Source: Anaerolineae bacterium
Lineage (GTDB): Bacteria; Chloroflexota; Anaerolineae; 4572-78; J111
NCBI GenBank assembly: GCA_023382535.1
Contig: JAHDWA010000029.1
Coordinates: 1-64,000 of the forward strand
DNA length: 64,000 nt
Direction of reading: 5' to 3'
Shown: positions 25,780-61,609 of the stretch, one piece after another
Layout: each line of letters starts with the position of its first letter
Position numbering within the stretch: the first letter of the stretch is position 1
Program-made: the position numbers and the translations under genes
Notes under the pieces: generated by a model
Database searches by the model: none
What the model was told of the DNA's origin: nothing
What the model saw: only the letters and a program-made list of their open reading frames with translations

Positions 25780-25780
25780 T

Positions 25781-25866: not shown

Positions 25867-25874
25867 AGTGGCAT

Positions 25875-25960: not shown

Positions 25961-25968
25961 AGTGGCAT

Positions 25969-26054: not shown

Positions 26055-26062
26055 AGTGGCAT

Positions 26063-26138: not shown

Positions 26139-26168
26139 GCTTGGCTCGCAATGACAAGGATAGCACTC

Positions 26169-26456
26169 GTGAGCAAACAATACTACGTCTACATCATGAC
26201 CAACAAATACCACACCGTCCTCTACACGGGTGTAACCAACGATCTAAAACGACGAGCTTACGAACATAAAACCGGGTCAGGGGGCGGCTTCACCAGCCGA
26301 TACAATGTCACCAAGTTGGTTTATTATGAAGTGGGCCAGGATGTGAACTCAGCTATTGCTAGAGAGAAGCAAATCAAAGCAGGTTCAAGGCAGAAGAAGA
26401 TTGACTTGATTAACGGAATGAATGGTGAGTGGAAAGATTTGTATGAAACGCTGTGA
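26169..26456 (+). CDS. Small GIY-YIG family endonuclease
   Basis: 95 residues forming a complete single-domain GIY-YIG nuclease of the UvrC-N-like small type. KQYYVYIMTN and VLYTGVTNDLKRRAYEHK supply the two Tyr motifs and the conserved Arg; EKQIKAGSRQKKIDLIN carries the late Glu/Lys region. I start at the GTG at 26169, which gives the usual short leader; an in-frame ATG at 26151 lies in the repeat remnant. The gene is bracketed by palindromic repeats on both sides, which suggests it travels with them. Such proteins nick DNA; the target is unknown. Confidence 0.85.
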   Translation: MSKQYYVYIMTNKYHTVLYTGVTNDLKRRAYEHKTGSGGGFTSRYNVTKLVYYEVGQDVNSAIAREKQIKAGSRQKKIDLINGMNGEWKDLYETL

Positions 26457-26460
26457 ATCT

Positions 26461-26536
26461 GTCATTGCGAGGGCGTAGCCCGAAGCAATCCCTCAGGCCG
26501 GACGTGGGGATTGCTTCGCCTGCGGCTCGCAATGAC
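26461..26536. repeat. Palindromic interspersed repeat, copy 5
   Basis: A 76-bp copy beginning five bases after the GIY-YIG stop, with perfect terminal arms GTCATTGCGAG / CTCGCAATGAC. Confidence 0.88.
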
Positions 26537-26546
26537 CCCAACACAT

Positions 26547-26623
26547 GTCACTGCGAGGGCGTAGCCCGAAGCAGTCCCTGGTTACGGAGGAGGGAGATTG
26601 CTTCGCCTGCGGCTCGCAATGAC
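26547..26623. repeat. Palindromic interspersed repeat, copy 6
   Basis: A 77-bp copy ending 21 bases before the start of the DUF499 ATPase gene, immediately upstream of its ribosome-binding site. Confidence 0.88.
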
Positions 26624-26644
26624 GTATGGAATCAGGAGATAGAC

Positions 26645-42154: not shown

Positions 42155-42189
42155 ACCCCTTCGATTGCGCTCAGGACAGGCCCTGAATC

Positions 42190-42266
42190 GGGGGCTGGGG
42201 GTCAGGGGCTAGGGGTTGGAAAGAAGGGTAGTGGTAAGGATTTCCCGAATCCCGGCGGTAGCCGGG
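42190..42266 (+). other. Post-VR2 module: G-rich tract and hairpin
   Basis: A tract with several runs of four or five G (42190-42218) can form a G-quadruplex. The hairpin CCCGGC-GGTA-GCCGGG (42251-42266) follows, then TTTAAAATTT. The stem starts 115 nt after the VR end. It may act as terminator or as a cis element for retrohoming. Confidence 0.65.
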
Positions 42267-42305: not shown

Positions 42306-43799
42306 ATGACTGTCAGTACAGACTATTATCTGGGTCTCAAAAATGGGGTGTTTGACACCACCAGCCGGGCTAATCTGGACCGGCTCTTCCAGAGCTGTAC
42401 CGGCTGCGACCGATTGGTGGTCCATTTTCACGGCGGGTTGGTTTCCAGCCAATCGGCTATGACCACCATTGAAAAGACTCTCCTGGCAGCCTACCAGGTC
42501 GCGGGAGCGTACCCGGTCTTTTTTGTCTGGGAATCTGGGGCGAAGGAGGTCATTACCCATAACCTGGCCGAAATCTGGCAGGAAAAAATCTTTCAGCGTT
42601 TGCGGACCAGAGTGATGCAGTTTGTCGAGGCCAAGCTCCGGCAGAGTGAGCAGGAACGGGGTGGCCTGCTGGAACTCAAAGACCCCGCAGAAATCGAAGC
42701 CGAGCTGGACCGGCCAGAAGGAAGCGGTGAACCTTTTACCGAGTTGGACCCGCTCCAGTTGCCTGACGATGAAACGCTCCGTCCAATTGAAGCCGATCAG
42801 ATTAAGAAGCTTCTAGAGCGAGACCCCATTTTGAAAAGAGAGGCCGAGGCGATTGCTAACGGTCTGCGCTCGCCGGAGGAGATTGAACAGCAGCGCTCTG
42901 CTCGGGGCGGCACGGTGCAGGCTTCCCGTCACACGCTGATGTCCCCCGAAGTGCTGGAAGAGATCCGGCGTGAAGCGCCCAGCCCGGAGGAGCGCGGCCT
43001 GTTTTCTACGGCTGCCATTGTGAAAGGCACGATCGCCACGCTGGCCCGTGTCATTCAACGCCTGGCCAAAAAGCGCGATCATGGGGTTTACTGCACCGTG
43101 GTTGAAGAGATTCTGCGCGAATTCTACCTGGCCAATGCCGGCAAGCTGGTCTGGGACTGGATGAAGGGCGACACCGCGGACGCCTTTAAGCCCGACGCCC
43201 AGCGCTACGGCGGTACGGCCTTTCTGGAGTGCCTGCGGCAGCAGCAGTGGACTGGCGGCCAGCAGCCCCGCCTGATTCTGGTCGGCCACAGTACCGGCGC
43301 GGTCTATATCTGCCATCTCCTCAAGCACGCCGCGGCGGTGCTGCCGCCGGAAGCGCAGTTTGAAATCATCTTTCTGGCTCCGGCCTGCGATTTCCGGCTG
43401 CTGGCCGATACCCTGACCCTCTACGGCGATAGGGTCAAAGCCTTCCGGCTGTTCGGGATGCAGGACAGCCTGGAAGCGAGAGATAACCTGGTGCCGCCGC
43501 TGCCCATCTACCCGCGCTCGCTGCTCTACTTTGTTTCCGGCGTGTTGGAAGCCGAGGCCGACAAGCCCATTGTGGGCATGCAGCGTTTCTACTCCGGCCA
43601 GCCGCCTTTTGACGAGACCGCTTACCCGGAGATCGAAATTGTCCGCCGTTTTCTCGAGGCGACGCCAGGACGCACCGTCTGGTCTGAAGCTAATAACGGC
43701 CCCGGCTTAGCTTCCAAAGCCAGCAGCCACGGCAAATTTGACGATGAAGATGCCGACACACTGACCAGCCTTCAATATATCATTCAGGAGGGTTTCTGA
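42306..43799 (+). CDS. Alpha/beta-hydrolase-fold protein, putative lipase-like effector
   Basis: 497 residues. HFHGGLVSS near residue 40 resembles an oxyanion-hole loop, and GHSTG with Ser329 is the nucleophile elbow of serine esterases and lipases. A His/Asp partner is likely in the C-terminal part (YGDRVKAFRLFGMQD, then a late acidic-His stretch). The middle third is a charged helical insertion. It is preceded by a GGAGGG site and followed one base later by the caspase gene, so the two are one transcript. In NACHT conflict loci such hydrolases are proposed to attack membranes or signals; the substrate here is unknown. Confidence 0.75.
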   Translation: MTVSTDYYLGLKNGVFDTTSRANLDRLFQSCTGCDRLVVHFHGGLVSSQSAMTTIEKTLLAAYQVAGAYPVFFVWESGAKEVITHNLAEIWQEKIFQRLRTRVMQFVEAKLRQSEQERGGLLELKDPAEIEAELDRPEGSGEPFTELDPLQLPDDETLRPIEADQIKKLLERDPILKREAEAIANGLRSPEEIEQQRSARGGTVQASRHTLMSPEVLEEIRREAPSPEERGLFSTAAIVKGTIATLARVIQRLAKKRDHGVYCTVVEEILREFYLANAGKLVWDWMKGDTADAFKPDAQRYGGTAFLECLRQQQWTGGQQPRLILVGHSTGAVYICHLLKHAAAVLPPEAQFEIIFLAPACDFRLLADTLTLYGDRVKAFRLFGMQDSLEARDNLVPPLPIYPRSLLYFVSGVLEAEADKPIVGMQRFYSGQPPFDETAYPEIEIVRRFLEATPGRTVWSEANNGPGLASKASSHGKFDDEDADTLTSLQYIIQEGF

Positions 43800-43800
43800 G

Positions 43801-44847
43801 ATGGCCGCTGACGATTATGCCGTTGTCGTGGGTATCACCAAGTACCCCGAAATTGGGGACCTGCAAGGGCCGGAGAACGACGCCCAGGCTTTTTACGACT
43901 GGCTGCGCTCGCCTCAAGGCGGTAATGTCAAAGAATCGCACATCACCTTGATTGTCTCCAGTAAATATGATAACTCTGCTGCCGGCGCGCTCCTGACCCA
44001 ACCTCTGCGCGATCAGGTTGAAGCCGCTTTCGTCGAGCTGATTAATCAGGCCGGAGATAGCGGAACTTTGGGGCGGCGGCTTTATATCTTTCTGGCCGGG
44101 CATGGGATTGGGGTGGATATTGAAGAAGTGGCTTTACTGATGGCTAACGCCGGCGTTAGGAGCAAGTATCACCTTCCCGGTCGCAGCGTGGCTACTTTGT
44201 TACGAACCTCTGCTCTCTTCAAAGAAATTGTCCTGTTTATGGACTGCTGCCGTGATGATTATCCCTACATCCCCAAATATCTCCCCCTCTGGGAGTTAGA
44301 GTCTCGACCCGCCGCCGCTGATGTGCGCTACTTCTATGGGTTCGCCACCAAATGGTCGCGCAAAGCCCGGGAGAAAGAGGTTACACCCGGCGGTCCGGTG
44401 CGGGGTTTGTTCACCCGCGCCCTGTTAGCCGCCCTGGAAAAAGCGCCGCCCGACGAGCAGGGCCGTGTTACCGGTACTATTGTGGCCGGCTACGTTTTTA
44501 ACGAACTCAAACGGCTGGTGGCGGAGAATGAATATCAAGAGCCTCGTTTTGAGTATGAGCCGCAGCGCGACATTATCCTGGTTGAGCCCCGGCCAATAAA
44601 CGCCCTGGATGCCGTCTCCTCTCCTGCGACGATCCCTGTCCATTTACAGCCGGCCCCGGCGATTGTCGGACAGCGGGTTGAGATTCTAAACCACCGTTTT
44701 GAACCTGTGGCCGAAACCGAAGCTGTGGCCGATAATTGGACGGTGAATCTGGAGGCGGGAATCTACCAGGCCCGCGTACCCGGCACCGCTCACGAAAAGG
44801 TGTTTGATGTCATTGGCGAGGAGGCAATCAATGTCAACCTGGACTGA
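43801..44847 (+). CDS. Caspase-like protease (peptidase C14 / metacaspase type)
   Basis: 348 residues. The p20-like core begins YAVVVGITKYPE with GPENDAQAFYDWL. The catalytic dyad is visible: His101 in FLAGHG and Cys149 in FMDCCRDD. RGLFTRALLAALE corresponds to the conserved GxFTxALL helix before the p10 part. A C-terminal beta domain of about 90 residues follows, with PVHLQPAPAIVG. Caspase-like proteases are established effectors next to STAND ATPases in bacterial conflict systems, where cleavage leads to cell death. A GAGGG site lies at the end of the hydrolase gene. Confidence 0.9.
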   Translation: MAADDYAVVVGITKYPEIGDLQGPENDAQAFYDWLRSPQGGNVKESHITLIVSSKYDNSAAGALLTQPLRDQVEAAFVELINQAGDSGTLGRRLYIFLAGHGIGVDIEEVALLMANAGVRSKYHLPGRSVATLLRTSALFKEIVLFMDCCRDDYPYIPKYLPLWELESRPAAADVRYFYGFATKWSRKAREKEVTPGGPVRGLFTRALLAALEKAPPDEQGRVTGTIVAGYVFNELKRLVAENEYQEPRFEYEPQRDIILVEPRPINALDAVSSPATIPVHLQPAPAIVGQRVEILNHRFEPVAETEAVADNWTVNLEAGIYQARVPGTAHEKVFDVIGEEAINVNLD

Positions 44848-46804
44848 GGCCGACAAGGTCAGTGTGACGATCAAGGCCGGCAACCCGGCCACCGAGATTT
44901 CTATTATAGACGGCAATTTTGGGCTGGTTGAGCAGGGTTTGGACCACCTGGAAACCCGACTGTCGCCCGGTCTCTACAAAATCAAATTCAAAAGCGGCTC
45001 GACAATTAAAGAGCAGCACCAGGTTGTTACGCCGGGCAGCAGTCCGATCCGAGTGACTGGGCCGGAAATATCTTTTCCCACCTCGGCTCCACTCAGTCAA
45101 ACGAGCACCAGCCACGAATTTCACCAGGGACCGGCTGTCCAGCTCAGCCGGGAAGTCCACCGCCGGTTAGGGCACGGCAGCCAGTTCTTCTTCTTCGGAC
45201 GTGATCTGGAGCCACAGCAAGCGCCCAAAAATGTGGCGACGGGCCTGAGCCTGTGCAGCCTGGCCGGCGAAACCCTGGTTGACCTCGCCCGGCAAAGTGT
45301 TCACAACGCCGAGCAGAGTTGGGCCGGCTGCACCGTCGAGGTTGATCCCGGGATCTACCGCCTGCGGCTGCAAGCAGGCGAAGATATGACCCTGGAGCAG
45401 ATTCTGGTTGCCAGCCTGAACTGGCAGACCCAGGTGTTCTGGCTGCGGCGTGACTACGGGCCGGGCCGGCCGGTGCGCCGGGTAGATCTGGCCGACGCCT
45501 CGCTTTTGATGGCCCGCATCGGGTTAGGGTTTGACCCGAATCGGGATGATCTGCGGACCACAGACCTGGCGCGCCAGGGCCTGGTCAACCGCCGGGCGGT
45601 GGTCTCCGCGGCCGAATTAAACCAGTTGCTTTGGGGGAAATTTCAGAATCCGATGTTCGGTATCTTTGGGGCGCACTTGCTGCTGCTGGGGGCTGAACCG
45701 GACCTGGCAGTGCTGGGCACCGTCGTGACCAACCTGCGCCATCTCGTCGGCGAGCATCCCGATGTGGAGGCCCTGGCCCTGCGCCTGGGTGAAACGGTTT
45801 CCGGCTTTGCATCCCCGCCCATGCTGCGCAGCAGTTGGCGGCAGATCGTCCAGGCCAGCGCCGCCAGCCCGGAATTAGTGCCCGCCGGCAGCCTGGCCGC
45901 GCAAGTGGCCGACCGGCTTTGGGGCGAAGGGGCCTGGCTGGTCTGGGAGCGGCCGCCTACCGGTGAGGCTGCGGGGGTTAAGGAGGGCACGACGAGAGGC
46001 GCGTTAAGCGTGAGCCAAACTCTGAGCCAGGTGGTGGACACTGTGGCCGGGCCAGAAAATTTAGAGGCTTTTCTGACCAAAGGGGAGCTGACCGACCTGG
46101 AAGAAAGTCTGCTGCGCTATGCCCTCAAAACCAACCCGGCGCAGGCAAAGTCAGCTTCGTTGGAGTCCCTAAGGGACCAACCCGGCACAGAGGCCGACCT
46201 GATTCGTACCCTGGGATTGCCCTATGCGGCCATCCAGCAGAGTCTAGCCGGGCTGAGCCAGAAAGTAGAGCAACTGGCTGCCAGCCGGGGGGTGTCCATC
46301 GGCGATGTTAGGGGGGACATTCGCAGCAGCATCATTGCCGGGGGGGATGTGGTTGGCTCTACCACTGACATTTCAGGCAGCGGCAATGTCCTCATCCAGG
46401 GCAGTCACATTACTGCCGGATCCCACAGTGTCATTGGCGCGACCGCTCGCGGCGACATCAACACCGGGGACGTGACCACCGGTAGGTCTGGAGACCCGTG
46501 GGCCGGCTTATTTGGCCCGCTTTATCGCCAGATTGAAGCAAACAGCCGCCTGTCTGCTGACGATAAAGCCGACTTGAAGGCAGACGTTGAGGAGATTGAA
46601 AAGGAAGCAAAAGCGAAGGCAAAAGCCGGGGCTGAACCGGACGACTCGTTGGTACGCCGGCGGCTGCGCAGCATCGAGCAGATGGCTCCCGACCTGATTG
46701 AGGCCATCGCCGCCACAACAGTTAGCCCCGCGAGTGATGTCGAGCCGGTGTGGGTCAAGATTGTGGCCCAAGCCGGCGAGATCATAGCCGCCCGGAAATC
46801 ATAA
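44831..46804 (+). CDS. Multidomain conflict-locus protein with beta module and shared C-terminal helical domain
   Basis: About 657 residues. The N-terminus is a beta-sandwich-like segment (SVTIKAGNPATEISI ... GLYKIKFKSG) with a second similar unit near 110-190. A helical central region follows. Residues about 480-560 hold the longest copy of the Gly/Asp-rich beta module (VSIGDVRGDIRSSIIAGGDV, SGSGNVLIQGSHITAG). The last 90 residues (ADLFGPLYRQI-type helix, DDSLVRRRLRSIEQMAPDLI) are shared with the next gene. The ATG at 44831 has a GAGGAGG site and overlaps the caspase gene by 17 bases. It is probably a scaffold linking effectors and receptors; no enzyme motif was seen. Confidence 0.7.
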   Translation: MSTWTEADKVSVTIKAGNPATEISIIDGNFGLVEQGLDHLETRLSPGLYKIKFKSGSTIKEQHQVVTPGSSPIRVTGPEISFPTSAPLSQTSTSHEFHQGPAVQLSREVHRRLGHGSQFFFFGRDLEPQQAPKNVATGLSLCSLAGETLVDLARQSVHNAEQSWAGCTVEVDPGIYRLRLQAGEDMTLEQILVASLNWQTQVFWLRRDYGPGRPVRRVDLADASLLMARIGLGFDPNRDDLRTTDLARQGLVNRRAVVSAAELNQLLWGKFQNPMFGIFGAHLLLLGAEPDLAVLGTVVTNLRHLVGEHPDVEALALRLGETVSGFASPPMLRSSWRQIVQASAASPELVPAGSLAAQVADRLWGEGAWLVWERPPTGEAAGVKEGTTRGALSVSQTLSQVVDTVAGPENLEAFLTKGELTDLEESLLRYALKTNPAQAKSASLESLRDQPGTEADLIRTLGLPYAAIQQSLAGLSQKVEQLAASRGVSIGDVRGDIRSSIIAGGDVVGSTTDISGSGNVLIQGSHITAGSHSVIGATARGDINTGDVTTGRSGDPWAGLFGPLYRQIEANSRLSADDKADLKADVEEIEKEAKAKAKAGAEPDDSLVRRRLRSIEQMAPDLIEAIAATTVSPASDVEPVWVKIVAQAGEIIAARKS

Positions 46805-46839: not shown

Positions 46840-47565
46840 ATGACAGACCCAAATAACCTGCAAAAATTGATCAGGGAACATACCCGCCGTTTGGATCAGC
46901 TCAAGCTGCGCCAGGCCCGCCAGGGGTCCAATACCGACCCCCATATCACCCTTGAAATTGAAGACATCGAGGCTGAAGTGGCTCGACTGCAGGCCCAACT
47001 GACCGGCGATCCAACTGCTGCCACGCCTTCATCGCCGCCGGCCAGCAGCGGGGTATCTATCGGTAACGTCAGCGGCGGCATCCACAACAGCACTATTGCC
47101 GGGCGAGATGTGGTTGGCCCGACCACGACTCTATCCGGCAGCGGCAATGTCTTCATTCAGGGCAGCACCATTTATGCGGGCGAGCGCAGTGTGATCGGCG
47201 CGGCGGCTGGTGGTAGTATCAACACCGGGGACACGGCTAGCGGACTCGAAGGAAGCACGCTGGCCGACCTGTTTGCCCCGCTTTATAAGCGGATTCAGGC
47301 GAACACTGCCTTGCCCGATTCTGATAAGGCGGATGTGACCGCAGAAGTCAAAGAACTTGAGCAAGACGCCACAGCGAAGGCTGAAGCCGGAGCGGAGCCG
47401 GACGAGTCCTTTCTGCGCCGGCGGCTGCGCAGCATTGAGCAGATGGCCCCGGACATTATTGATACCATTGCCACCACGGCGGCCAACCCGGTGGCCGGCA
47501 TCAAGGGCGTGTGGGATAAGATTGTAGCTAAAGCCCGCGAGATCAAAGCCGCCCGAAAATCGTAA
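46840..47565 (+). CDS. Small adaptor: coiled coil, beta module, shared C-terminal domain
   Basis: 241 residues. The helical N-terminus (LIREHTRRLDQLKLRQARQG, LEIEDIEAEVARL) is related in style to the adaptor domains of the NACHT proteins. The middle is the beta module (GVSIGNVSGGIHNSTIAGRD, SGSGNVFIQGSTIYAG). The C-terminal 100 residues closely match the end of the preceding protein (PDESFLRRRLRSIEQMAPDI). It looks like a stripped-down version of that protein with a different front, as expected for an adaptor pair. The TAA is followed by 59 bases to receptor 3. Confidence 0.75.
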   Translation: MTDPNNLQKLIREHTRRLDQLKLRQARQGSNTDPHITLEIEDIEAEVARLQAQLTGDPTAATPSSPPASSGVSIGNVSGGIHNSTIAGRDVVGPTTTLSGSGNVFIQGSTIYAGERSVIGAAAGGSINTGDTASGLEGSTLADLFAPLYKRIQANTALPDSDKADVTAEVKELEQDATAKAEAGAEPDESFLRRRLRSIEQMAPDIIDTIATTAANPVAGIKGVWDKIVAKAREIKAARKS

Positions 47566-47624: not shown

Positions 47625-50480
47625 ATGAGCGATGACCTGAACAAAACCGTCAATCGGCTGAAAGAGCTGTTGCAACGGGGTGATATTGACGAGACAATGT
47701 TCCGTATGCTGCTTACCGGCCAGGGTCTCACCCCTGCCCAGATTGAAGCGGCGCTGACCGGCTTCGGCAATATCGCGATCCAGGACAGCTTGATTGAGGC
47801 CGGTGAGCGCGGCGTTGTCGGCAGCAGCGCCGGGCGAGACATTGTCACGGGCGACCTGATCCAAAATCAAACAATTCTCCAGGCCGCCGACCCGGCAGAG
47901 TCCCGTCAGGCCAACTTGCGGCAGCAGTGCCTGCGGCGGCTGGCCCATCGCTGCAATATTCTGCCCCTGGCCGCGCTGGGCGGTGAGGAGAGCGCCAAAG
48001 CCGAAGTCAGCCTGGCCGATGTTTACGTGAATCTGGATACCAAAACACGGGTGCCGCTGACGAAGGCCGAGAAAAAGGAGCGCCCCGCTGGCCAGGACGA
48101 CCGCCCCTTGACAGTGCTTGAAGCAGCCACCCAACAGCCCCGCCTGGTTCTACTGGGCGAGCCTGGCAGCGGCAAGAGCACCTTTGTGCAGCAGTTGGCC
48201 GCGCACCTGGCTCTGGCTCGCCTGGGCGAGGTGGACCCACTGCCCGGCTGGCCGGCCCGGGCCTGGCCGATGCTGACCCTGCTGCGCGACCTGTCGCCGC
48301 GTCTGGCCGCCATTGCCCTGGCCGACCCGCTGACCGAATCGCAGGAAGAGGCCCTGGTCGCGGCCATGCTGGCCCAATGGCAGGCCGACCTGGCCCAACT
48401 CGACGCGGCCGGTCTGGCCGCCGATCTGCCTAATTTGTTGACCAACGAACCGGTTGTGCTCATCTTTGATGGATTGGACGAAGTGCCCGAAGCCGCCCGC
48501 CGCCACGTGCGCCTGGCCGTGCAGTCCGCTCTGCGCGCCTACCCGGCCATCCAACAGGTTATCATCACCTGCCGCATCCGTTCCTACACCGGCCCGGCCC
48601 TGCTGCCCGATTTTACGAGCCACACCCTGGCTCCGTTTACCACTGACCAAATCCGCACCTTTGTCAAAGCCTGGTACAACACCCAAGCCCGGCTTCACCG
48701 GCTCACGGCCGCTCAGGCCGCCGAGCGCACGGACGATTTGCAAGGTGCAGCCGTGTCCTCTCACCTGCGCGAACTGGCTCAAAACCCGATGCTGCTGACC
48801 ACGATGGCCCTGATTCACCAGCGCGAGGTGGGCCTGCCGCGCGAGCGAGTGCGGCTGTACGAGGAGGCGGTCAAGGTGCTGCTGACCCGCTGGCAAAAGC
48901 GCAAAGAAATTGCTGTTTCCGAACGGCTGCAAGACGTTTTGAATGACCAGCTCAAGCTGCGCCAGATTATGGAACGGCTGGCCTACGAAGTGCACCGGCG
49001 GCAGAGCCAGAGCCAGGCTGTTAACACCACCGGCCAGGGCGACCTGCCCCGGCTGGAGGCGCTGGGGCTGCTGGAAGACAGCCGCTACCTGGGCGACATC
49101 GGCCTGGCTCACGAGTTTCTGGATTACGCCGACCAGCGGGCCGGGCTGCTGCAAGGGCGCGGCGGTGAAGAGGGCCGCCAGGCGACGGCCTATACTTTTC
49201 CCCACCGTACCTTTCAAGAATACTTGGCCGGCTGTTATATGGTCACCGGCCGCCAGCGGCAGGTGGTCCAGGAATACTGGCAGCGGCTGGCCGAGGGCGA
49301 CTTCTGGTACCTGGCCGGGCAGTTGGGGGCGGAAGAGCTGCTCTACAACCGGCGCGACCCGGAAGAGATGCTGGATCTGGCCTATGCTCTCTGCCCTTCC
49401 GACGAACCGGCTACACCGGCCGAGTGGCGGGCGGTGGTCTGGTCGGGCCAGATGGCGGTAACGCGCGGGCAGGCCGAGATTGCCGCCGATACCGGGGGCC
49501 GCGAAGGCGGGGCCAGGTATCTGCGCCGCCTAATCGAACGGCTCAAAGGGGCGCTGCGGCAGGCCGGCCTGAAAGCCATCGAACGGGCCGAGGCCGGAAA
49601 CGCTCTGGCGGTTTTAGGGGACGACCGGCCCGGCATAGGCTTACGCCCGGATGGTCTGCCTGATATTGCCTGGTGCGACGTGCCAGCCGGGCCGTTTGTG
49701 CGGGGGAGTAACAAAAAGGCGGACCCTATGGCTTATGACGATGAATTACCGCAACAAACAATTAACGTGTCAGCCTTCAAAATCAGCCGTTATCCCATTA
49801 CCAATGCCCAATACACTGCTTTTGTGGAAGCCGGTGGTTACAAGTTAAAATCATACTGGCGGGAGGCCCACCAGGCTGGCTACTGGCAGGAAGGCCAATT
49901 CAAGGGTCTTCTTGATAAGGAAGCGCGTAGCCAACCTTATGATTTTGGCACGCCTTTCAACCTGCCGAACCATCCGGCAGTGGGGGTAAGTTGGTACGAA
50001 GCCGTAGCCTTCTGCCACTGGCTGACTCAACAATTGCGATCAGTGGGTGAGCTTGACTCCGATGAAGCCGTAACCTTGCCGACCGAAAACCACTGGGAAA
50101 AAGCAGCCCGGGGACCGGATGGGCCGATCTATCCCTGGGGGAACGAGGCTGACCCGGAGCGGGCCAACTATGCCGCTGCCGGTATTGAGGCGACCAGCGC
50201 GGTGGGCTGCTTTCCGGGCGGCGCCAGCGTCTATGGGGTGGAGGAAATGAGTGGGAACGTCTGGGAGTGGTGCCGGACGAAGTGGCAGGCGAATTACAAA
50301 AATTACCAGGATGATAATGATCTTGAAGGGGGTTCCCCGCGGGTGGTGCGGGGCGGGGCGTTCTACAGTGATGGTGGGTTCGTCCGCTGCGCCGCGCGCG
50401 TCAGCACCGATCCGTTCAGCAGGGACGGGGGCTACGGTTTTCGGGTATGTGTAGTCGGGGTGTCCCCATCCTCACTCTGA
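47625..50480 (+). CDS. NACHT receptor with FGE/CLec sensor (receptor 3, carries VR3)
   Basis: 951 residues. A helical N-terminus (DLNKTVNRLKELLQRGDIDE) and beta module (GVVGSSAGRDIVTGDLIQN) precede a conserved pre-NACHT strand (DVYVNLDTKTRVPLT). The NACHT has P-loop LGEPGSGKSTF (about 181) and Walker B VLIFDGLDEVPE (about 283). The FGE/CLec domain starts near 676 (CDVPAGPFVRGSNKK, YPWGNEA, SGNVWEWC). The variable end lies at about 904-947. An AGGAGG site precedes the ATG. As the receptor next to avd and the TR it is a prime DGR target. The variable residues are Tyr, Ser, Asp, Gly and Phe, typical of diversified lectin-fold binding surfaces. Confidence 0.92.
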   Translation: MSDDLNKTVNRLKELLQRGDIDETMFRMLLTGQGLTPAQIEAALTGFGNIAIQDSLIEAGERGVVGSSAGRDIVTGDLIQNQTILQAADPAESRQANLRQQCLRRLAHRCNILPLAALGGEESAKAEVSLADVYVNLDTKTRVPLTKAEKKERPAGQDDRPLTVLEAATQQPRLVLLGEPGSGKSTFVQQLAAHLALARLGEVDPLPGWPARAWPMLTLLRDLSPRLAAIALADPLTESQEEALVAAMLAQWQADLAQLDAAGLAADLPNLLTNEPVVLIFDGLDEVPEAARRHVRLAVQSALRAYPAIQQVIITCRIRSYTGPALLPDFTSHTLAPFTTDQIRTFVKAWYNTQARLHRLTAAQAAERTDDLQGAAVSSHLRELAQNPMLLTTMALIHQREVGLPRERVRLYEEAVKVLLTRWQKRKEIAVSERLQDVLNDQLKLRQIMERLAYEVHRRQSQSQAVNTTGQGDLPRLEALGLLEDSRYLGDIGLAHEFLDYADQRAGLLQGRGGEEGRQATAYTFPHRTFQEYLAGCYMVTGRQRQVVQEYWQRLAEGDFWYLAGQLGAEELLYNRRDPEEMLDLAYALCPSDEPATPAEWRAVVWSGQMAVTRGQAEIAADTGGREGGARYLRRLIERLKGALRQAGLKAIERAEAGNALAVLGDDRPGIGLRPDGLPDIAWCDVPAGPFVRGSNKKADPMAYDDELPQQTINVSAFKISRYPITNAQYTAFVEAGGYKLKSYWREAHQAGYWQEGQFKGLLDKEARSQPYDFGTPFNLPNHPAVGVSWYEAVAFCHWLTQQLRSVGELDSDEAVTLPTENHWEKAARGPDGPIYPWGNEADPERANYAAAGIEATSAVGCFPGGASVYGVEEMSGNVWEWCRTKWQANYKNYQDDNDLEGGSPRVVRGGAFYSDGGFVRCAARVSTDPFSRDGGYGFRVCVVGVSPSSL
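50335..50465 (+). repeat. VR3: DGR variable repeat, adenine-only differences
   Basis: 131 nt, the same length as the TR. Twenty of the thirty adenines in the variable codons are changed (mostly to G or T, one to C), and no other position differs. The two adenines in the downstream homing segment are unchanged. This is the classic signature of DGR mutagenesis. Confidence 0.96.
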
Positions 50481-50520
50481 ACTCTGAATCCTCTGAACTC
50501 TGACCCTCTGAATCTGAATC

Positions 50521-50597
50521 GGGGGACGGGGGTTAGGGGTTGGGGGTTGGGAAAAGCGGCGACCATCAGACTCACCGGAATCCCGGCGGTAGCCGGG
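50521..50597 (+). other. Post-VR3 module: G-quadruplex-capable tract and hairpin
   Basis: Five G-runs of three to five bases within 31 nt (50521-50551), then CCCGGC-GGTA-GCCGGG at 50582-50597 followed by an A/T run. The stem starts 117 nt after the VR end. The arrangement matches the modules after VR2 and VR4. Confidence 0.7.
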
Positions 50598-50628
50598 CCG
50601 ATTTAAAATTTTTAAAAGGAGTATCGCC

Positions 50629-50985
50629 TTGTCCGGTCAAGAAATGCCGATTTTTACGCGGACCTTTGATTTTCTCACCTGGCTGCTGCCCGCTACTAAT
50701 CATTTTCCGCGCGTCCATCGCCACAGCTTCACCCAACGGCTGCTGGACGCCGCCTTTGACCTGCGGGAGCGGCTGGAGGAAGCCAACCTGCGGCAGGGAC
50801 CGGCCCGGCTGGAGCGTCTGGGCCAGGCCGACGAGGCCCTGGCCAAAGTGCGGCTCTACCTGCGGCTGGCGGCTCGCTGGGGCTGGCTGTCGGACGGGCA
50901 GTACGAACACGTGGTCCAAATGGTGGCCGAGATTGGACGCTTGCTGGGCGGCTGGCGGAAAGTAACGGATAAGGTGGCCAATTAG
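50629..50985 (+). CDS. avd: DGR accessory variability determinant (Avd-like four-helix protein)
   Basis: 118 residues, all helical. LLDAAFDLRERLEEANLRQG, RLERLGQADEALAKVRLYLRLAARWGWLS and YEHVVQMVAEIGRLLGGW fit the four-helix-bundle Avd family. Avd forms a pentameric, positively charged barrel that binds the RT and the template RNA and is needed for mutagenic retrohoming. The start is a TTG eight bases after AAAAGGA; an ATG at 50644 would remove only five residues. It lies between VR3 and the TR, the usual DGR order. Confidence 0.9.
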   Translation: MSGQEMPIFTRTFDFLTWLLPATNHFPRVHRHSFTQRLLDAAFDLRERLEEANLRQGPARLERLGQADEALAKVRLYLRLAARWGWLSDGQYEHVVQMVAEIGRLLGGWRKVTDKVAN

Positions 50986-51079
50986 CAGCCTGAGTAGTGC
51001 GTATCGAAGGCTGCAATCGTCTTAAACCGGCAGCTTGCGGTTCTCACGAATCGCTGTTGCGGGGGCAGGCTCATAACCA

Positions 51080-51210
51080 CCCCGCGGGTGGTGCGGGGCG
51101 GGGCGTTCAACAATAATGATAGGAACGTCCGCTGCGCCGCGCGCAACAACAACAATCCGAACAACAGGAACAGGAACAACGGTTTTCGGGTATGTGTAGT
51201 CGGGGTGTCC
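51080..51210 (+). repeat. DGR template repeat (TR)
   Basis: 131 nt. Three adenine-rich codon blocks (51109-51126, 51145-51156, 51160-51180) hold AAC, AAT, AGG and GAT codons separated by adenine-free islands. Randomising A in these codons gives NNC, NNT, NGG or GNT, so no stop codon can arise. The left flank has no adenine. The right 30 nt is the invariant homing segment shared with VR3 and VR4. The TR is transcribed on the plus strand toward the RT gene. Confidence 0.96.
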
Positions 51211-51589
51211 ACGTTTTTTATCAGAGATGTCGTTTTCTGCCGGAAATGCCCGGCGGGGCTAACCCCCTTCCGGGCCGAGGCATCTAAAAAATGGCGGAGC
51301 CTGTTCCTGGCCGTGCCCGCCGGTCCCTAAGGGACCTAATCCGGGCCGGGCATATAACAACCGTCCCGCCCCCTCGGCGCGTCGCGTGTCCCTGGGGCGG
51401 GACAACGGCTTATCTCCCTCCCCCTCTTAGGGGGAGGGTCGGGGAGGGGGTCGAATCTACCAGCAACTCTGTTCCTGGGACAACTTACTGCTGGCTTACC
51501 GCCGGGCCAGCCGGGGCAAGCGCGGCCAGGCCAATGTCGCCGTCTTTGAGCACGGCCTGGAGGATAACCTGCTCCAATTACAGGCCGAG
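51211..51589 (+). other. TR-RT spacer with strong secondary structure
   Basis: It contains nested hairpins: CCGGAA (51240) / TTCCGG (51268) enclosing GGGG-CTAA-CCCC; a GGTCC-CTAAG-GGACC palindrome at 51322; a 10-bp stem GTCCCGCCCC (51363) / GGGGCGGGAC (51394); and a 10-bp stem CCCTCCCCCT / AGGGGGAGGG ending near 51438. In studied DGRs the RNA downstream of the TR is needed for RT priming, so structure here is meaningful. The RT frame is already open from 51431. Confidence 0.6.
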
Positions 51590-52522
51590 TTGCTGGCTCA
51601 GAGCTACCGGCCCGGCCCTTACGCCAGCTTTTACATTCACGAACCCAAACGCCGGCTGATCTCGGCTGCGCCTTTCCGCGACCGGGTGGTGCACCATGCC
51701 CTGTGCAACCTAATCGAGCCGATCTTTGAGCGCAGCTTTATCGCCGACAGCTACGCCAACCGCCTGGGTAAAGGCACCCATCGCGCCCTGGCTCAGTGCC
51801 AGGCGTTGGCCCGGCGCTATCGCTACGTGTTACAGTGCGACGTAGAGCAATTCTTTCCGGCGGTGGATCATGCCATTTTAGGTGACATCCTGGCCCGTAA
51901 AATCAACGACGAGCGGGTGTTGTGGCTGGTTGACCGGATTCTGGCCAGCGGGGTCGGGGTGCTGGCCGAGGTGTACGAAATGAGATGGTTTCCCGGCGAC
52001 GACCTGTGCGCCGCCCTGCGTCCCCGCGGCCTGCCGATAGGCAACCTGACCAGCCAGTTCTGGGCCAACTGTTACCTCAACTCATTGGATCATTTTGTCA
52101 AGCGCGAGCTGCGCTGCTCAGGTTATGTGCGTTACGTTGACGATCTGGCCCTTTTCGGCGATGATAAGGCAGAGTTGTGGCGCTGGCGTGAAGCCGTGGT
52201 GGCGCGGCTGGCCCAACTGCGGCTGACCCTGCACCCGTCGGCTCAGCCCCGGCCTGTCAGCGAAGGTGTGTCATTTCTGGGCTTTGTCATCTTTCCTGAG
52301 CGGCGACGGCTTAAACAGCGCAAGGGGCTGCACTACCGGCGCAAGCTGGCCCGGCTGCTGGCCGCTTATGAAGCCGGGGAAATTCCGCTGGATGCGGTCA
52401 CAGCCAGCGTGCAGGGCTGGGTGAACCACGTCCGTTATGGCAACACAATCGGGCTGCGCAAGGCGGTGTTGAGTAAAATGATCCTGAAAGCACCTCTACT
52501 TGACCGGGAGGATGAACGATGA
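51590..52522 (+). CDS. DGR reverse transcriptase
   Basis: 310 residues from the TTG at 51590. RT motifs are in order: RLISAAPFRDRVVHHAL, QCDVEQFFPAVDH (first catalytic Asp), GLPIGNLTSQFWANCYLNSL (the DGR-type motif 4 in place of QGxxxSP), RYVDDLALFGDD (catalytic YVDD) and GVSFLGFVIFPERR. It copies TR RNA with errors at adenines. The frame extends upstream to 51431 and translates to conserved DGR-RT N-terminal residues (IYQQLCSWDNLLLAYRRASR), but contains no ATG or GTG there and abuts a palindromic repeat, so the true start is unclear or damaged. Its stop overlaps receptor 4 by ATGA. Confidence 0.93.
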   Translation: MLAQSYRPGPYASFYIHEPKRRLISAAPFRDRVVHHALCNLIEPIFERSFIADSYANRLGKGTHRALAQCQALARRYRYVLQCDVEQFFPAVDHAILGDILARKINDERVLWLVDRILASGVGVLAEVYEMRWFPGDDLCAALRPRGLPIGNLTSQFWANCYLNSLDHFVKRELRCSGYVRYVDDLALFGDDKAELWRWREAVVARLAQLRLTLHPSAQPRPVSEGVSFLGFVIFPERRRLKQRKGLHYRRKLARLLAAYEAGEIPLDAVTASVQGWVNHVRYGNTIGLRKAVLSKMILKAPLLDREDER

Positions 52523-55500
52523 GTTTCAATCTGCAAATCTGGAAAGAGAAAACTCAGGCCCTGCTGCCCCAGGTAGGGCGAGATCTGGCCCACCTGAAAC
52601 AGCAAGATACGCCCCTGCTGCTGTACGGCTACCTGAGTGGCTTTGCCTTGCTGCCGCCGGCCCTGGCGGCCAAAAGCGGCGATCTGATGCAGGTGGCCGT
52701 AACCATTGGCGGCGTGTTTGGCGGCCTCGGCGGCAGTTTGCTGGCCAATAAAGTGCAAGAGTGGGCCAATCAGGCCGCAGTATTAACCGAAAGTACGCTG
52801 ACCGAAAAGGTAATGGCTGAAATCCCGCAACAGCCGGAGCTACGGCAAGAGCTTGACCAGGTATTGGAAGCTCTGGCGGTCATCCCACAGACGGCGCAAA
52901 GTTTAGGTGAAACGGACCGGGCCTGGTTTGTGGCGACTCTGGCCCGCGAGTTAGCAGAGCTGGGCGCGCTGCGTGCGGACAACGCCCGGCTGGTAGGCCC
53001 AGGCTTGATTATCCAGGGCAGCCGATTACAGGGCGGCGACCGCAGCGTGCTGGCCAGCCAGGCCCAGGTCATCATCACCGGCGATGGCAACCAGGTCACA
53101 TTAATTCTGGGCAGCGATCCAGCAGCGGAGGCTGCGACCAGCGCCGATTTGCGCCGGTCTTACCTGAACCGTCTGTTTGAGCAGTGCAGCTACTTGCCCC
53201 TGGCCGGGGTTGATCGGGCCGTGGCTGGTAAGCTGGAAACGGAACTGAATCTCAGCACCATCTATACCGCCCTGCTGACCATTGGCAGCGAGGAGCCGGG
53301 ACGCCGGGCTGTGGCGGCCGAGCCGAAGCGCCTGTCGGCCCTGGCCCAACTGGACCGTCAGCCCTACCTGGTGCTGTTGGGCGATCCGGGCAGCGGCAAA
53401 AGTACCTTTGTTAATTTTGTGATTATGTGCCTGGCCGGAGAAGAACTGGAGCGGGAGGAGGCCAACCTGGTTCGCCTCACTGCGCCCCTGCCGGATGATA
53501 AGGGTCAAGATCAGGCCGAACGCCAGCCCTGGCAGCATGGGGCGCTACTGCCGGTGCGGATCATCCTGCGTGATTTTGCCGCGCAGGGGCTGCCGCCGGT
53601 AGGCCAGCCCGCTACCGCTCACCATCTGTGGGAATTTATCAGCGCCGATTTACAGGCGGCTCAATTGGGTGAATTTCTCAAACCCCTTGAAAAAATATTG
53701 CGCCAGAAAGGAGGCTTGCTGCTGCTGGACGGGTTAGACGAGGTACCCGAAGCCGGGCAGTGCCGGGAGCAGCTCAAACAGGCCGTGGAAGATTTCAAAA
53801 GCGCCTTTCCGCGCTGCCGCTTGCTGGTGACCAGCCGGACCTACGCTTATCAGGAGCAGAACTGGCGCTTGAAAGGTTTCCGCGAGACGGTGTTAGCTCC
53901 GTTTAGCCAGGGGCAGATTCGTCGTTTTGTGGACGGCTGGTATCGCCATATGGCCTACCTGCAGCGCTTCACTTCGGATACCGCCCACGCCCAGGCCGAG
54001 CGGCTCAAGCAGGCCATCCTGGGCAACGCCCGACTGAGCCAATTGGCCGAGCGACCGCTGCTGCTGACCTTGATGGCCAGCCTGCACGCCTGGCGCAGCG
54101 GCAGCCTGCCGGAGCGCCGGGAAGAACTGTATGACCAGGCCGTGGATTTACTGTTGTACTGGTGGGAGCGGCCCAAGGTCCGGCGCGGCCAGCCGGGACG
54201 GCCAGCGGTAGCTGCCGAGCCGGGATTGGTGGAGTGGCTGGAGGTGGATCGGGAAAGGGTGCGTCGCTTCCTGAACGAACTGGCCTATGACGCTCATGCT
54301 GGACAGTCTGATCTGCTTGGCACTGCCGATATTGCCGAAGACCGACTGGCCGGCGGCCTGCTCCGGCTGAGTGACAAAGCCGGACTGAATCCGCTTGAAT
54401 TGCGGCGCTACCTGAGCCAGCGGGCCGGGCTGCTGCTGCCACGGGGAGTAGAAGTTTACACCTTCCCGCACCGGACTTTCCAGGAGTACCTGGCCGCCTG
54501 CCACCTGACCGATTATAAATATCCCGGCGAGATAGCCCGGCTGGCCCGGACCGACCCGGATCGCTGGCGGGAAGTGCTCTTGCTGGCCGGGGCCAAGGCC
54601 GCCCGCGGGTCCCAATCGGCCATCTGGAGCCTGGCCCGCAAATTATGCTGGGCCGAGCCGCCCCGGGCCGGGGCCGCCCCAGAGCAGGTCTGGGGGGCGC
54701 ACCTGGCCGGCCAGGCCCTGGTCGAAACGGCCAACCTGGCCGACGTGGACGAGGATGACCGGCAAACCCTGGCGCGGATCAAGGCCTGGCTGAACTATAT
54801 CCTGGCCCAGGCCGCCTTGCCTGCCCGCGAGCGCGCCCTGGCCGGACAGACTCTGGCCGTGTTGGGCGATGACCGGCCCGGCCAGGGGCTTCGGGCTGAC
54901 GGTCTACCGGACATTGCCTGGTGTGACATTCCTGCCGGGCCGTTTGTACGGGGGAGTGTGGATGATAGATTGTCATTCGTTGGTAAAGAAACGCCCCAGC
55001 AAACCATTACCCTCCCGACTTTCAGAATCGGCCGCTACCCCATCACCAACATTCAGTACACGGTTTTTGTGGAGGATGGCGGTTATACTGACAAATGGCG
55101 GCGCTGCTGGACCAAGGCCGGCTGGCGGTGGAAAGAGAAGAGGACCGGACCGGACAAGTTCGGAGGTGTTTTTGACCTGGCCAACCATCCGGTCGTGATG
55201 GTGAGTTGGTATGAAGCCGTGGCATTTTGCCACTGGCTGACGGAGCGGCTGCGAGCAGCAGGGAAATTGGGGGAAGGTAAAGAAGTGAGCCTGCCCAGTG
55301 AAAGCCAGTGGGAGAAGGCCGCGCGCGGCCCGAATGGGCGCGTTTATCCCTGGGGCAATGAGGCTGACCCGGAGCGGGCTAATTACGGCGAGACCGGCAT
55401 CGGCGCAACCAGTGTGGTAGGCTGCTTTCCGGGCGGCGCCAGCGTCTATGGGGTGGAGGAAATGAGTGGGAACATCTGGGAGTGGTGCCGGACCAAATTT

Positions 55501-55692
55501 GAGAAGAGTTATGAAAATTACCGGGATGACAATGCCCTTGAGGGGGATGCCCCGCGGGTGGTGCGGGGCGGGGCGTTCTTCAGTTATGCTAGGCTCGTCC
55601 GCTGTGCCGCGCGCAGCGGCAGCGATCCGTTCTACAGGAGCAGGGACTACGGTTTTCGGGTATGTGTAGTCGGGGTGTCCCCATCCTCTTGA
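52519..55692 (+). CDS. NACHT receptor with membrane N-terminus and FGE/CLec sensor (receptor 4, carries VR4)
   Basis: 1057 residues. The N-terminus has hydrophobic segments (LLLYGYLSGFALLPPALAA; VAVTIGGVFGGLGGSLLA, about 33-75), so it may be membrane-associated. A beta module follows (GPGLIIQGSRLQGGDRSVLA). The NACHT has P-loop LGDPGSGKSTF (about 291) and LLLLDGLDEVPE (about 405). The FGE/CLec domain begins near 796 (CDIPAGPFVRGSVDD, YPWGNEA, SGNIWEWC). The variable end is at about 1010-1054. Its start overlaps the RT stop, so sensor and mutator are translated together. A different N-terminal output with the same sensor end supports combinatorial design. Confidence 0.92.
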   Translation: MSFNLQIWKEKTQALLPQVGRDLAHLKQQDTPLLLYGYLSGFALLPPALAAKSGDLMQVAVTIGGVFGGLGGSLLANKVQEWANQAAVLTESTLTEKVMAEIPQQPELRQELDQVLEALAVIPQTAQSLGETDRAWFVATLARELAELGALRADNARLVGPGLIIQGSRLQGGDRSVLASQAQVIITGDGNQVTLILGSDPAAEAATSADLRRSYLNRLFEQCSYLPLAGVDRAVAGKLETELNLSTIYTALLTIGSEEPGRRAVAAEPKRLSALAQLDRQPYLVLLGDPGSGKSTFVNFVIMCLAGEELEREEANLVRLTAPLPDDKGQDQAERQPWQHGALLPVRIILRDFAAQGLPPVGQPATAHHLWEFISADLQAAQLGEFLKPLEKILRQKGGLLLLDGLDEVPEAGQCREQLKQAVEDFKSAFPRCRLLVTSRTYAYQEQNWRLKGFRETVLAPFSQGQIRRFVDGWYRHMAYLQRFTSDTAHAQAERLKQAILGNARLSQLAERPLLLTLMASLHAWRSGSLPERREELYDQAVDLLLYWWERPKVRRGQPGRPAVAAEPGLVEWLEVDRERVRRFLNELAYDAHAGQSDLLGTADIAEDRLAGGLLRLSDKAGLNPLELRRYLSQRAGLLLPRGVEVYTFPHRTFQEYLAACHLTDYKYPGEIARLARTDPDRWREVLLLAGAKAARGSQSAIWSLARKLCWAEPPRAGAAPEQVWGAHLAGQALVETANLADVDEDDRQTLARIKAWLNYILAQAALPARERALAGQTLAVLGDDRPGQGLRADGLPDIAWCDIPAGPFVRGSVDDRLSFVGKETPQQTITLPTFRIGRYPITNIQYTVFVEDGGYTDKWRRCWTKAGWRWKEKRTGPDKFGGVFDLANHPVVMVSWYEAVAFCHWLTERLRAAGKLGEGKEVSLPSESQWEKAARGPNGRVYPWGNEADPERANYGETGIGATSVVGCFPGGASVYGVEEMSGNIWEWCRTKFEKSYENYRDDNALEGDAPRVVRGGAFFSYARLVRCAARSGSDPFYRSRDYGFRVCVVGVSPSS
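55550..55680 (+). repeat. VR4: DGR variable repeat
   Basis: 131 nt. Eighteen of thirty template adenines in the variable codons are changed. The only other difference from the TR is one C-to-T at 55605, a silent change in a Cys codon. The variable amino acids differ from VR3 at most positions, so the two receptors were diversified independently. Confidence 0.96.
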
Positions 55693-55732
55693 CTCTGATC
55701 TCTGAACCCTCTGACCTCTGACCCTCTGAATC

Positions 55733-55808
55733 GGGGGCTGGGGGTTAGAGGTTGGGGGTTGGGAAAAGCGGTGACTATCAGACCCCCTGAATCCCGGCGG
55801 TAGCCGGG
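55733..55808 (+). other. Post-VR4 module: G-rich tract and hairpin
   Basis: The G-runs span 55733-55763 and CCCGGC-GGTA-GCCGGG spans 55793-55808. The stem starts 113 nt after the VR end. A T-rich run (AAAATTTTTAG) follows, so it may also terminate the DGR transcript. Confidence 0.7.
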
Positions 55809-59674: not shown

Positions 59675-59934
59675 CCGCCACTTTAGATGAGGCCAGGTGC
59701 TACGTTCAATCCGGATTTTCAGTCATCCCACTATGGCAGGTTCCTGGTGATACTAAACGATCCAAACAGCCAGCGATCTCCAGTTGGAAAGAGTACCAGA
59801 ATCGACTACCAATCCCCGAGGAGTTGGATGGCTGGTTTGGCAACGACAACAGACCACGCAACCTGGCCCTTATCACTGGCTACGTCTCTGGCAACGTTGT
59901 TGCTTTAGATTTTGACGTACCCGGAAGCTATTGA
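59671..59934 (+). pseudogene. Prim-pol primase-helicase, N-terminal fragment (frame 1)
   Basis: 87 residues, the start of a bifunctional primase/polymerase domain: GFSVIPLW, a Lys/Pro-rich KQPAISSWKEYQ, NLALITGYVSGNVVALDFD. The final DFD carries the first catalytic acids. The frame then runs into a stop. The sequence continues in the +1 frame as YPEAIERWTTFYP, so one extra base near 59917 breaks the gene, or a +1 frameshift is used. Confidence 0.8.
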
Positions 59935-61609
59935 ACGGTGGACCACCTTCTATCCCAAGATTGCCGAATTCACAGCCACTGCCAAGACCAATAAAGGCTA
60001 CCATGTCCTGCTACGGTTGAAGTCACCCCCACCTGGCAATTATGCGCCCGCTTATTTTCAAAATGAGCCGCTAGGGGAGACACGAGGCCAAGGAGGATAT
60101 ATCGTAGTGCCCCCGTCTATTCATGGGAGTGGACACCACTATGAGTGGATTCGTCCTCCCTGCGATGGCATTGCGGAGGTGGAATCGTTGGAAGCTGTCG
60201 GAATCACCAAAAAGGGTAGTGGTCCTCAAAGGACCGGTAACTCCATCCCACTGCTTTCGATTCACACTAACGGCAACCATAGTGCTTATGCTAAAGCTGC
60301 TTTCAAGGATGAGATCGAAATCTTGGCACACACCAATGAAAGGAATCGTAATAGTCAGTTAAATAAATCCGCCTTCGCTTTAGGTCAATTAATTGGAGCC
60401 GACCATCTTACTCGCTCAGAGGTTGAATGGGAACTTGAACGGACGGCTCTTGCTATTGGCTTGGATGAGCAAGAAACTCGCCGGACAATCCGCAGCGGAA
60501 TTGAAGCCGGGCTGAAGAAACCCCGTCACATACCAGCATATAGTAGTAGTTACGAGTCTGGACGACATTTTACCCAAAAGGATCGGGAAGCCGAGCTAGA
60601 TGAACCCAGTAATAACTTTAAAAATTTTGAAACCCTCATGGCCAAACTTACAGACTTGAAAACTTCTAACACTGAGATTATCCAAGAGTGGGTCTGGACG
60701 ATTGTTGACGATGCCGCTCAACTTGCTAGGGCAGATTATGGTCGCTTTAAAGATGCTCTACATGCGGTTGGCTTGACAAGAACATGGTTAAAGACCTGGA
60801 ACGGTACAGTGTGGCAGCGTACTGAAGAATTGCGCCAACAGCAGAAACGCGAGAATGCTACAAAAGCTGCTTCTTTTTCTACTCACTCCGGGTCCGGTTT
60901 TCCTTGTATAGTTTGTAATGGGCGTCATCTACGAGAGATTGTCGCAGATTCGATGAGTGCATTATGGGCCAAGAACAATGTTGATCCTTTCATTTTTCAG
61001 CGCGGCAACCTGCTTACCCGCATCAGAGTTGACGAAAAGGAACGGGCTACTACTGAACCGCTGACCGACTACTCGTTGCGAGGTATCCTGGCAAGATGCG
61101 CCGATTTTGTCAATGTCAAGATGCAGGGTGATGAGTTAGTGCAAATCCCAATGCCCCCGCCGATGGATATAATAAACGACATCTTGAATCTGAGTGAGTG
61201 GGAGTCCATCCCTCCCTTGGAGGGTATAGCCGCTGCACCAGTCGTCACCAAAGCGGGAACACTTGATTTACAGCCCGGCTATCAGTCCAAATCTAGGCTT
61301 TGTTACCTCCCGCAAAAAGACCTGGTAATCGGAGACATCACTCCTACTGACAGAAACATTGAGGCCGCCAAGAATTTATTGCTGGATGATATTTTAGGCG
61401 ATTTTCCGTTCGTGGACGAGGCTGCCAAGGCCAATGCCTTGGCTCTGATGCTGCTGCCGTTTGTCCGGCCCTATATTGATGGCCCTACGCCTAACCACAT
61501 TATTGAAGCACCCACTGAGGGGACGGGTAAGACTTTGTTAGCAATGACCGTGACGTACCCCTATGCTGGCACCGACTCAATCCCCCCTAATGACGGAGTG
61601 TCGCGATGA
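59912..61609 (+). pseudogene. Prim-pol primase-helicase, central fragment (frame 2)
   Basis: 565 residues in the frame, beginning in practice at YPEAIERW. It completes the prim-pol domain (KTNKGYHVLLRLKSPP; GGYIVVPPSIHGSGHHYEW). A helical linker follows, with CIVCNGRH zinc-like cysteines absent from most relatives. The helicase domain then reaches Walker A IIEAPTEGTGKTLLA. It ends prematurely after a run of six C at about 61570; the sequence continues in the next frame. The original protein would have primed and unwound DNA for an element or phage. Confidence 0.8.

Follow-up and report, generated by a model that had tools for sequence, protein, structure and literature searches.

A diversity-generating retroelement at NACHT-FGE receptor genes of an Anaerolineae bacterium and a putative family of structured RNAs behind its template repeat

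The window analysed here, a 64,000-nt stretch of DNA from an Anaerolineae bacterium (assembly GCA_023382535.1, contig JAHDWA010000029.1, positions 1 to 64,000), contains a diversity-generating retroelement (DGR) that almost certainly acts on the 3′ ends of genes for NACHT-FGE proteins. We consider it probable that the locus as a whole is a cellular DGR which serves a few related NACHT-FGE receptors, that the template repeat (TR) is followed by a structured RNA, termed tail RNA, and that the downstream steps are as proposed below. A preliminary description had reported a TR and two variable repeats (VRs) of the same length at the 3′ ends of two NACHT-FGE genes, and the coordinates and gapless alignments agree with it. 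The core features are the following.

51080-51210, + strand: TR, recognized by its adenine mismatches to VR3 and VR4; in the target frame it reads PRVVRGGAFNNNDRNVRCAARNNNNPNNRNRNNGFRVCVVGVS
50335-50465, + strand: VR3, at the 3′ end of the NACHT-FGE gene 47625-50480
55550-55680, + strand: VR4, at the 3′ end of the NACHT-FGE gene 52519-55692
42003-42136, + strand: VR2, at the end of gene 39314, with a 3-nt insertion and four non-A changes
47625-50480, + strand: NACHT-FGE receptor, VR3 target (Pfam NACHT 35.4 bits, FGE 173.5 bits)
52519-55692, + strand: NACHT-FGE receptor, VR4 target (Pfam NACHT 45.4 bits, FGE 180.9 bits; FGE domain model)
39314-42154, + strand: NACHT-FGE receptor with VR2 (Pfam)
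35419-38700, + strand: NACHT-FGE paralogue, its end not VR-like (Pfam; TR alignment)
50644-50985, + strand: Avd, ATG start, with an in-frame TTG at 50629 (NF033474 and PF22296 above cut-offs)
51455-52522, + strand: DGR-type reverse transcriptase (RT), read from ATC (PF00078)

Template repeat, variable repeats and targets

The TR comprises 131 nt with 32 A; 17 codons are variable, and a stop codon cannot be reached. Both VR3 and VR4 align to it without gaps. As described previously, VR3 differs from the TR only at template adenines (20 of 20 mismatches, hypergeometric P = 1.1e-15), and VR4 differs at 18 adenines and by a single C-to-T change (18 of 19, P = 1.3e-12). The non-adenine letters are identical to those of the TR at 99 of 99 positions in VR3 and at 98 of 99 in VR4. 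For VR2, an alignment with a 3-nt gap places 18 of 22 mismatches on A (P = 3.5e-10) and yields one extra codon; judged by this sequence, we take VR2 for an older target or a retired one. The window was scanned on both strands with the TR without gaps; the places of VR3 and VR4 matched at 109 and 110 of 131 positions, followed by 78 (position 38570, the end of gene 35419) and 77 (position 42006, i.e. VR2). The aligned end of gene 35419 has many non-adenine differences from the TR, with no adenine preference by eye (uncounted). No second TR was found elsewhere in the window by scanning both strands.

VR3 and VR4 agree with each other at 98 of the 99 non-A TR positions, compared to 229 of 300 positions in the 300 nt just upstream (Fisher P = 5e-9). 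This sharp edge of homogenisation at the VR fits repeated retrohoming and does not fit plain duplication.

All four receptor-like genes (35419, 39314, 47625, and 52519) encode NACHT (PF05729) and FGE domains that score above the Pfam cut-offs, and the diversified protein carries a C-type lectin fold, i.e. the FGE domain. The ATG of gene 52519 and the stop codon of the RT gene overlap by 4 nt. DGR-type RTs are marked by SQ in motif 4 and by YxDD; the translation of the RT contains IGNLTSQ and YVDD (read by eye), in line with the DGR-type motif 4 and YVDD of the preliminary description, and its best solved relative is 8ub7 (E = 1.3e-53). The gene that had been called Avd-like reaches 87.7 bits against NCBIfam NF033474 (cut-off 80), with the solved relative 4dwl (Bbp7) at E = 0.0028. 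Taken together, the mismatch pattern, the domains, the RT, and Avd are good support for a DGR that alters NACHT proteins in their C-terminal FGE domain. The terms sensor end, immune receptor, and effector of the preliminary description derive from the gene architecture and from proposals in the literature.

Identical hairpins with the sequence CCCGGC-GGTA-GCCGGG follow the three VRs.

42251-42266, + strand: hairpin behind VR2, 114 nt past the VR
50582-50597, + strand: hairpin behind VR3, 116 nt past the VR
55793-55808, + strand: hairpin behind VR4, 112 nt past the VR

No further copy was found in the window with one mismatch allowed. The loop, GGTA, fits the pattern GRNA. The phage BPP-1 needs a hairpin with a GRNA loop, and phage DGR stems of 7-10 bp are located 4-34 bp behind the VR (PMC3240598). 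Among relatives of the locus, stems of at least 8 bp within 150 nt were found behind 33 of 66 target stops, compared to 30 of 302 other gene ends; at this stem length the window's own targets are scored as misses. Similar G-rich stretches are also present behind the three VR genes (42183-42229, 50514-50560, and 55726-55772), and a G-quadruplex pattern of four runs is present in two of them. A G-quadruplex motif was rejected as a general feature behind VRs: it occurs at 7 of 66 targets and 2 of 302 control gene ends, i.e. in few cases, several of which overlap hairpins.

The relatives are the best 80 of 110 RT loci. They are mostly from bins titled Chloroflexota or Anaerolineae, with some from bins titled Myxococcales, KSB1, Nitrospirales, Halieaceae, and Rhodobacteraceae, titles that may be wrong. 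A mismatch test identified a TR-VR pair in 55 of the 80. Targets were aligned for 52 of the 53 with at least 400 aa (L064 was left out), selected from 71 VR-bearing frames, and one of the 52 (L033) is actually an RT frame; FGE was found in 51 and NACHT in 43 of the 52 target proteins scanned. In genome collections, no RT is closer than 74% identity, which places the VRs of close strains beyond comparison; an 84% identical protein is encoded on a 9.3-kb metagenome contig (P0002). In the class of genome G002, which is titled Anaerolineae and is the source of relative L005, 78 of 396 genomes have such an RT, with at most five each, and genome G001 has six.

To characterize the diversified codons, 44 of 71 TR-VR pairs were kept (18 were dropped for the motif, 8 were gapped, and 1 was spurious); 43 pairs entered the codon-coupling analysis and 39 the residue-constraint test. 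At 481 AAC/AAT template codons of the window and its relatives, the choice of the first VR base is linked to that of the second: a G at the second base goes with a purine at the first (88 vs. 6), and a T at the second base with a pyrimidine (96 vs. 26). The VR codons at these places preferentially encode D, Y, L, S, F, and G and seldom C, R, I, and V, a profile unlike that of BPP-1 in PMC12875486. Either RT bias or selection may cause the coupling. No position-specific residue constraint was found across the VRs in 16 columns (lowest P = 0.037).

A structured RNA behind the template repeat

When the stretch behind the TR was aligned among the relatives, conserved blocks and compensating changes became apparent, which define four helices in the window.

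51226-51413, + strand: structured tail RNA of the TR, from covariation (covariance model R1, 144.5 bits; the window is part of the R1 training set)
51238-51241/51279-51282, + strand: helix P1, from covariation
51248-51253/51270-51275, + strand: helix P2, from covariation
51308-51313/51347-51352, + strand: helix P3, from covariation
51363-51372/51394-51403, + strand: helix P4, from covariation

In the first alignment (A3, 19 sequences, 25 pairs in the four helices), 95.9% of the cells are paired, and both sides change in 19 pairs. Shuffling leaves 25.6 (sd 3.6) compensated cells and sliding the partner no more than 13, compared to the 83 observed. For 26 other sequences (A6), 97.0% of the cells pair, 20 of 24 pairs change on both sides, and 116 cells are compensated, compared to 27.7 in shuffles and at most 24 with the partner slid. 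The A6 sequences were picked up by a model built from A3 and are thus different sequences rather than a blind sample; they were aligned with MAFFT without structure. For related sequences the shuffles give no true probability, and the slid control is preferable. The fold energy of the window's own stretch has a z value of −3.8, and none of 200 shuffles was as stable. The tail RNA is very probably a working part of the DGR. Its function is most likely the same as that of the RNA behind the TR of BPP-1, which works together with the RT and Avd. A review presents the conserved structure of the BPP-1 RNA as a prediction.

At E < 0.005, R1 matches 67 of 84 sources, 48 of them outside its training set. 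For 49 of the matched sources (30 outside the training set) the TR is known from TR-VR mismatches, and in all 49 the RNA is on the same strand as the TR and starts no more than 6 nt before or 76 nt after the end of the TR. This includes loci in which the TR comes after the RT or stands opposite to it. Of the 56 records for which a TR is known from mismatches, seven are not matched by R1 at the level applied (L042, L063, L069, L074, L078, L079, and L080). R1 also has no match in BPP-1, three cyanobacterial DGRs, one Chlorobi DGR, one Ideonella plasmid DGR, and three viral contigs, and an R1 search of the window found no second tail RNA.

In the 396 whole genomes, matches are present in 64, and 50 of these are among the 78 genomes with an RT (odds ratio 39). 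Of the 85 matches, 47 are located within 3 kb of a listed RT. Among the 38 more distant ones, 20 of the 21 best-scoring were inspected. Seventeen of these are found directly behind a stretch in which one frame contains six or more AAC/AAT codons, a property of 2.6% of random windows. Seven of the 17 TR-like cases are near a contig end, three of them with an RT running off, and in the other ten the RT is absent or a remnant only, with at least 3.5 kb present on each side. Two loci in this set (L123 and L124, among L122-L141) have kept Avd and the target, with the RT reduced to short pieces. One of the remaining three matches is at a contig edge, and two are behind the end of an FGE gene. The latter directly follow the FGE gene end and not a TR (L127, 4730-4898, and L137, 3549-3722).

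A search of the window against Rfam 15 gave no hit at gathering score, and near the TR the matches below the cut-offs were only weak; in 20 relatives, one group II intron and nothing else was found at gathering score. The available portions of the open-access literature, including PMC8867640, PMC7517822, and PMC4372165, yielded no published covariation-supported tail RNA of this lineage. We narrowly favour the reading that the tail RNA, of about 190 nt, represents an undescribed structured family, shared as an RNA core by receptor-diversifying DGRs of one lineage, possibly also outside Chloroflexota, and that it also marks RT-less TR cassettes, which would need service in trans. Confidence in this family-wide reading was lowered because 7 of the 17 distant TRs are near contig ends. 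If it is true, the tail RNA would be a handle on orphan TRs, and RT-Avd docking and cDNA priming might take place at its conserved GGAAAUG/CGA internal loop and at helix P4.

Neighbouring genes

Four genes between the VR2 and VR3 targets are of interest as putative effectors.

42306-43799, + strand: alpha/beta-hydrolase-like protein, candidate effector (PF12697 24.4 bits, cut-off 26.3 not reached)
43801-44847, + strand: caspase-like protein, candidate effector (PF00656 32.3 bits, cut-off 21.4)
44804-46804, + strand: 666-aa protein with a shared motif, without a Pfam match above cut-off
46840-47565, + strand: TCAD2 protein with the shared motif (PF19971 35.4 bits, cut-off 27)

The caspase neighbour named in the preliminary description is thus confirmed at the Pfam level; the match of the proposed hydrolase effector is weak and below the cut-off. 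The C-terminal part of protein 44804 is 62% identical to 46840 over 174 aa. A glycine-rich stretch (family D6) is common to the receptors 39314, 47625, and 52519 and to the proteins 44804 and 46840; between 46840 and 47625, 20 of 34 residues of this shared motif are identical (E = 6e-10).

Elsewhere in the window, a NACHT-like protein is encoded at 31898-34357 (25.9 bits, just under the cut-off of 26.7), with a C-terminal half that is hydrophobic by eye. Defence genes of the Hma type are located in 16045-29935, i.e. HmaA (16045), HmaB (22966), and HmaC (26453), with 1071 to 1655 bits, and within this stretch a protein with a JukB-like N-terminal part is encoded at 20272-21495 (E = 2.6e-23). 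Near the window ends are a tyrosine-recombinase integrase (3053-4114) and a Prim-Pol protein (59912-61609), and the region flanked by them is possibly a mobile island.

Known systems, proposed mechanism and alternatives

In the features tested, the window is a member of a published class, and the combination of receptors with a DGR is already known. According to Dore et al. 2024 (PMC10907252), clade 5D DGRs commonly serve two target genes, whose products combine a STAND NTPase with one lectin-fold domain. As in the window, both targets of clade 5D loci such as DGR 3 and DGR 6 of Thiohalocapsa PB-PSB1 carry NACHT or nSTAND1 in the centre and a lectin-fold VR domain at the C terminus, and an RT, a TR, an accessory gene, and peptidase genes are nearby (PMC10907252); in the window, genes 47625 and 52519 are the two targets with a STAND NTPase and a C-terminal lectin-fold VR. 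In contrast to these loci, the window has a third, older-looking VR and the TCAD2 pair, and a tail RNA family is described for it. The same study reported that DGR targets vary naturally in one species, with their function still to be tested. STAND-FGS receptors with DGRs were described and likened to vertebrate receptor hypermutation by Kaur et al. 2021 (PMC8195603). These systems likewise combine NACHT and FGS (FGE) in one protein and have a caspase and an adjoining DGR; adaptor proteins are also encoded near them, and an adaptor common to sensor and effector is the rule in them.

Other systems are more distant. BPP-1 shares with the window a TR, a VR at a gene 3′ end, Avd (Bbp7), an RT, an RNA in the TR-RT spacer, and, with a shorter and more distant stem in the window, a hairpin with a GRNA loop; however, brt of BPP-1 is 36.8% identical to the RT of the window, its target is a tail protein, and R1 misses it. 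The target TvpA of Treponema denticola is an outer-membrane lipoprotein and not a NACHT protein (PMC10907252). Antiphage proteins of the bNACHT25 type have a central NACHT like that of the window's proteins, and the available part of PMC12169576 mentions neither a DGR nor an FGE domain; an antiphage role of the window's proteins is putative. To what is known, the window and its relatives add the tail RNA, a hairpin that recurs behind the VRs, and the ATC at the start of the RT.

The following mechanism is proposed. In analogy to established DGR biochemistry, RT and Avd would bind the tail RNA and transcribe the TR into a cDNA that carries errors at adenines; this cDNA would replace the VR, aided by the hairpin behind it. 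The fold and published proposals suggest that the varied FGE (C-type lectin) loops may bind invader or stress ligands, that the NACHT domain would oligomerise, and that the caspase-like, hydrolase-like or TCAD2 neighbours, two of which carry the receptors' motif, would act as effectors.

Several results weigh against parts of this scheme. The hairpins of the window, with a 6-bp stem at 112-116 nt, are shorter and farther away than those of phage DGRs, so that a terminator is also possible. The window's own lowest-energy fold includes P4 and pairs the P1-P2 region unlike the consensus. In the control of the P4 search, the mean is 10.1 pairs vs. 6.4 in shuffles, and 4.4% of the shuffles reach their own observed value. 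The shared N-terminal motif has no match to any named adaptor (EAD) in Pfam, and its model matches one protein only in the 80 relatives, the flanks of which are short. Lastly, the window has an ATC at the RT position where the relatives start.

This last point bears on the possibility that the DGR has recently stalled, i.e. that VR3 and VR4 were diversified earlier and that the RT is now poorly translated, with the receptors fixed or served in trans. Conserved coding of the RT frame begins at 51455, yet no ATG, GTG or TTG is present between the upstream stop and 51590, and the first usual start (TTG at 51590) would remove 45 conserved residues. Among 72 comparable RT loci (three of them viral contigs), an ATG stands exactly at the ATC position in 33; in the remaining 39, an ATG, GTG or TTG is present at this position or from 29 codons upstream to one codon downstream. 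A GC palindrome (51416-51438) is located just upstream of the RT, a near copy of which lies behind the VR of relative L062. The decayed VR2, the degenerate and trans-served DGR loci described in PMC10907252, and the presence of up to five such RTs per genome in the class are also compatible with stalling. In contrast, the RT frame is open from the ATC to the stop with the catalytic motifs kept, and the non-adenine letters of the VRs are identical to the TR at 99/99 and 98/99 positions. ATC is a listed start of table 11 and is directly preceded by the purine run GGGGAGGGGG, an assembly error is possible at this site, and the palindrome occurs only once in the window. We regard a stalled element as unlikely. 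From the sequence, the ATC may be used as a start, the cassette may be stalling, or the assembly may be in error. Activity of the RT in this very strain is favoured by a small margin of confidence, which was lowered because the ATC is unmatched among the 72 loci. The earlier statement that the repertoire can evolve in situ is plausible in view of the VR footprint.

A second alternative concerns function, i.e. the diversified NACHT-FGE proteins might tune signalling, kin recognition or programmed death instead of immunity. No ligand or phenotype is on record for them, and the DGR targets of cyanobacteria have been interpreted as proteins of signal transduction (PMC10907252). However, the NACHT proteins, the caspase-like neighbour, and the nearby Hma genes fit defence, and antigen sensing is favoured by the authors of PMC10907252 and PMC8195603. 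A non-immune role appears unlikely, and architecture and published proposals incline us, with some reserve, to an immune use of the receptors. A third explanation, divergence of simple gene duplicates with no retroelement involved, has next to no probability: the receptor genes are indeed paralogues with similar 3′ ends, but the confinement of mismatches to template adenines (P = 1e-12 to 1e-15), the sharp edge at the VR, and the like pattern in 55 of the 80 relatives rule out chance or duplication as the source.

To our knowledge, the mechanism of DGRs is known mostly from one phage. The window offers a clean case in which the hypermutation of receptors is linked to NACHT proteins, and this arrangement is frequent in one class of Chloroflexota. 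The tail RNA is a means of finding TRs, including the ten without an RT or with an RT remnant only, and it provides a defined RNA for the biochemistry of a cellular DGR.

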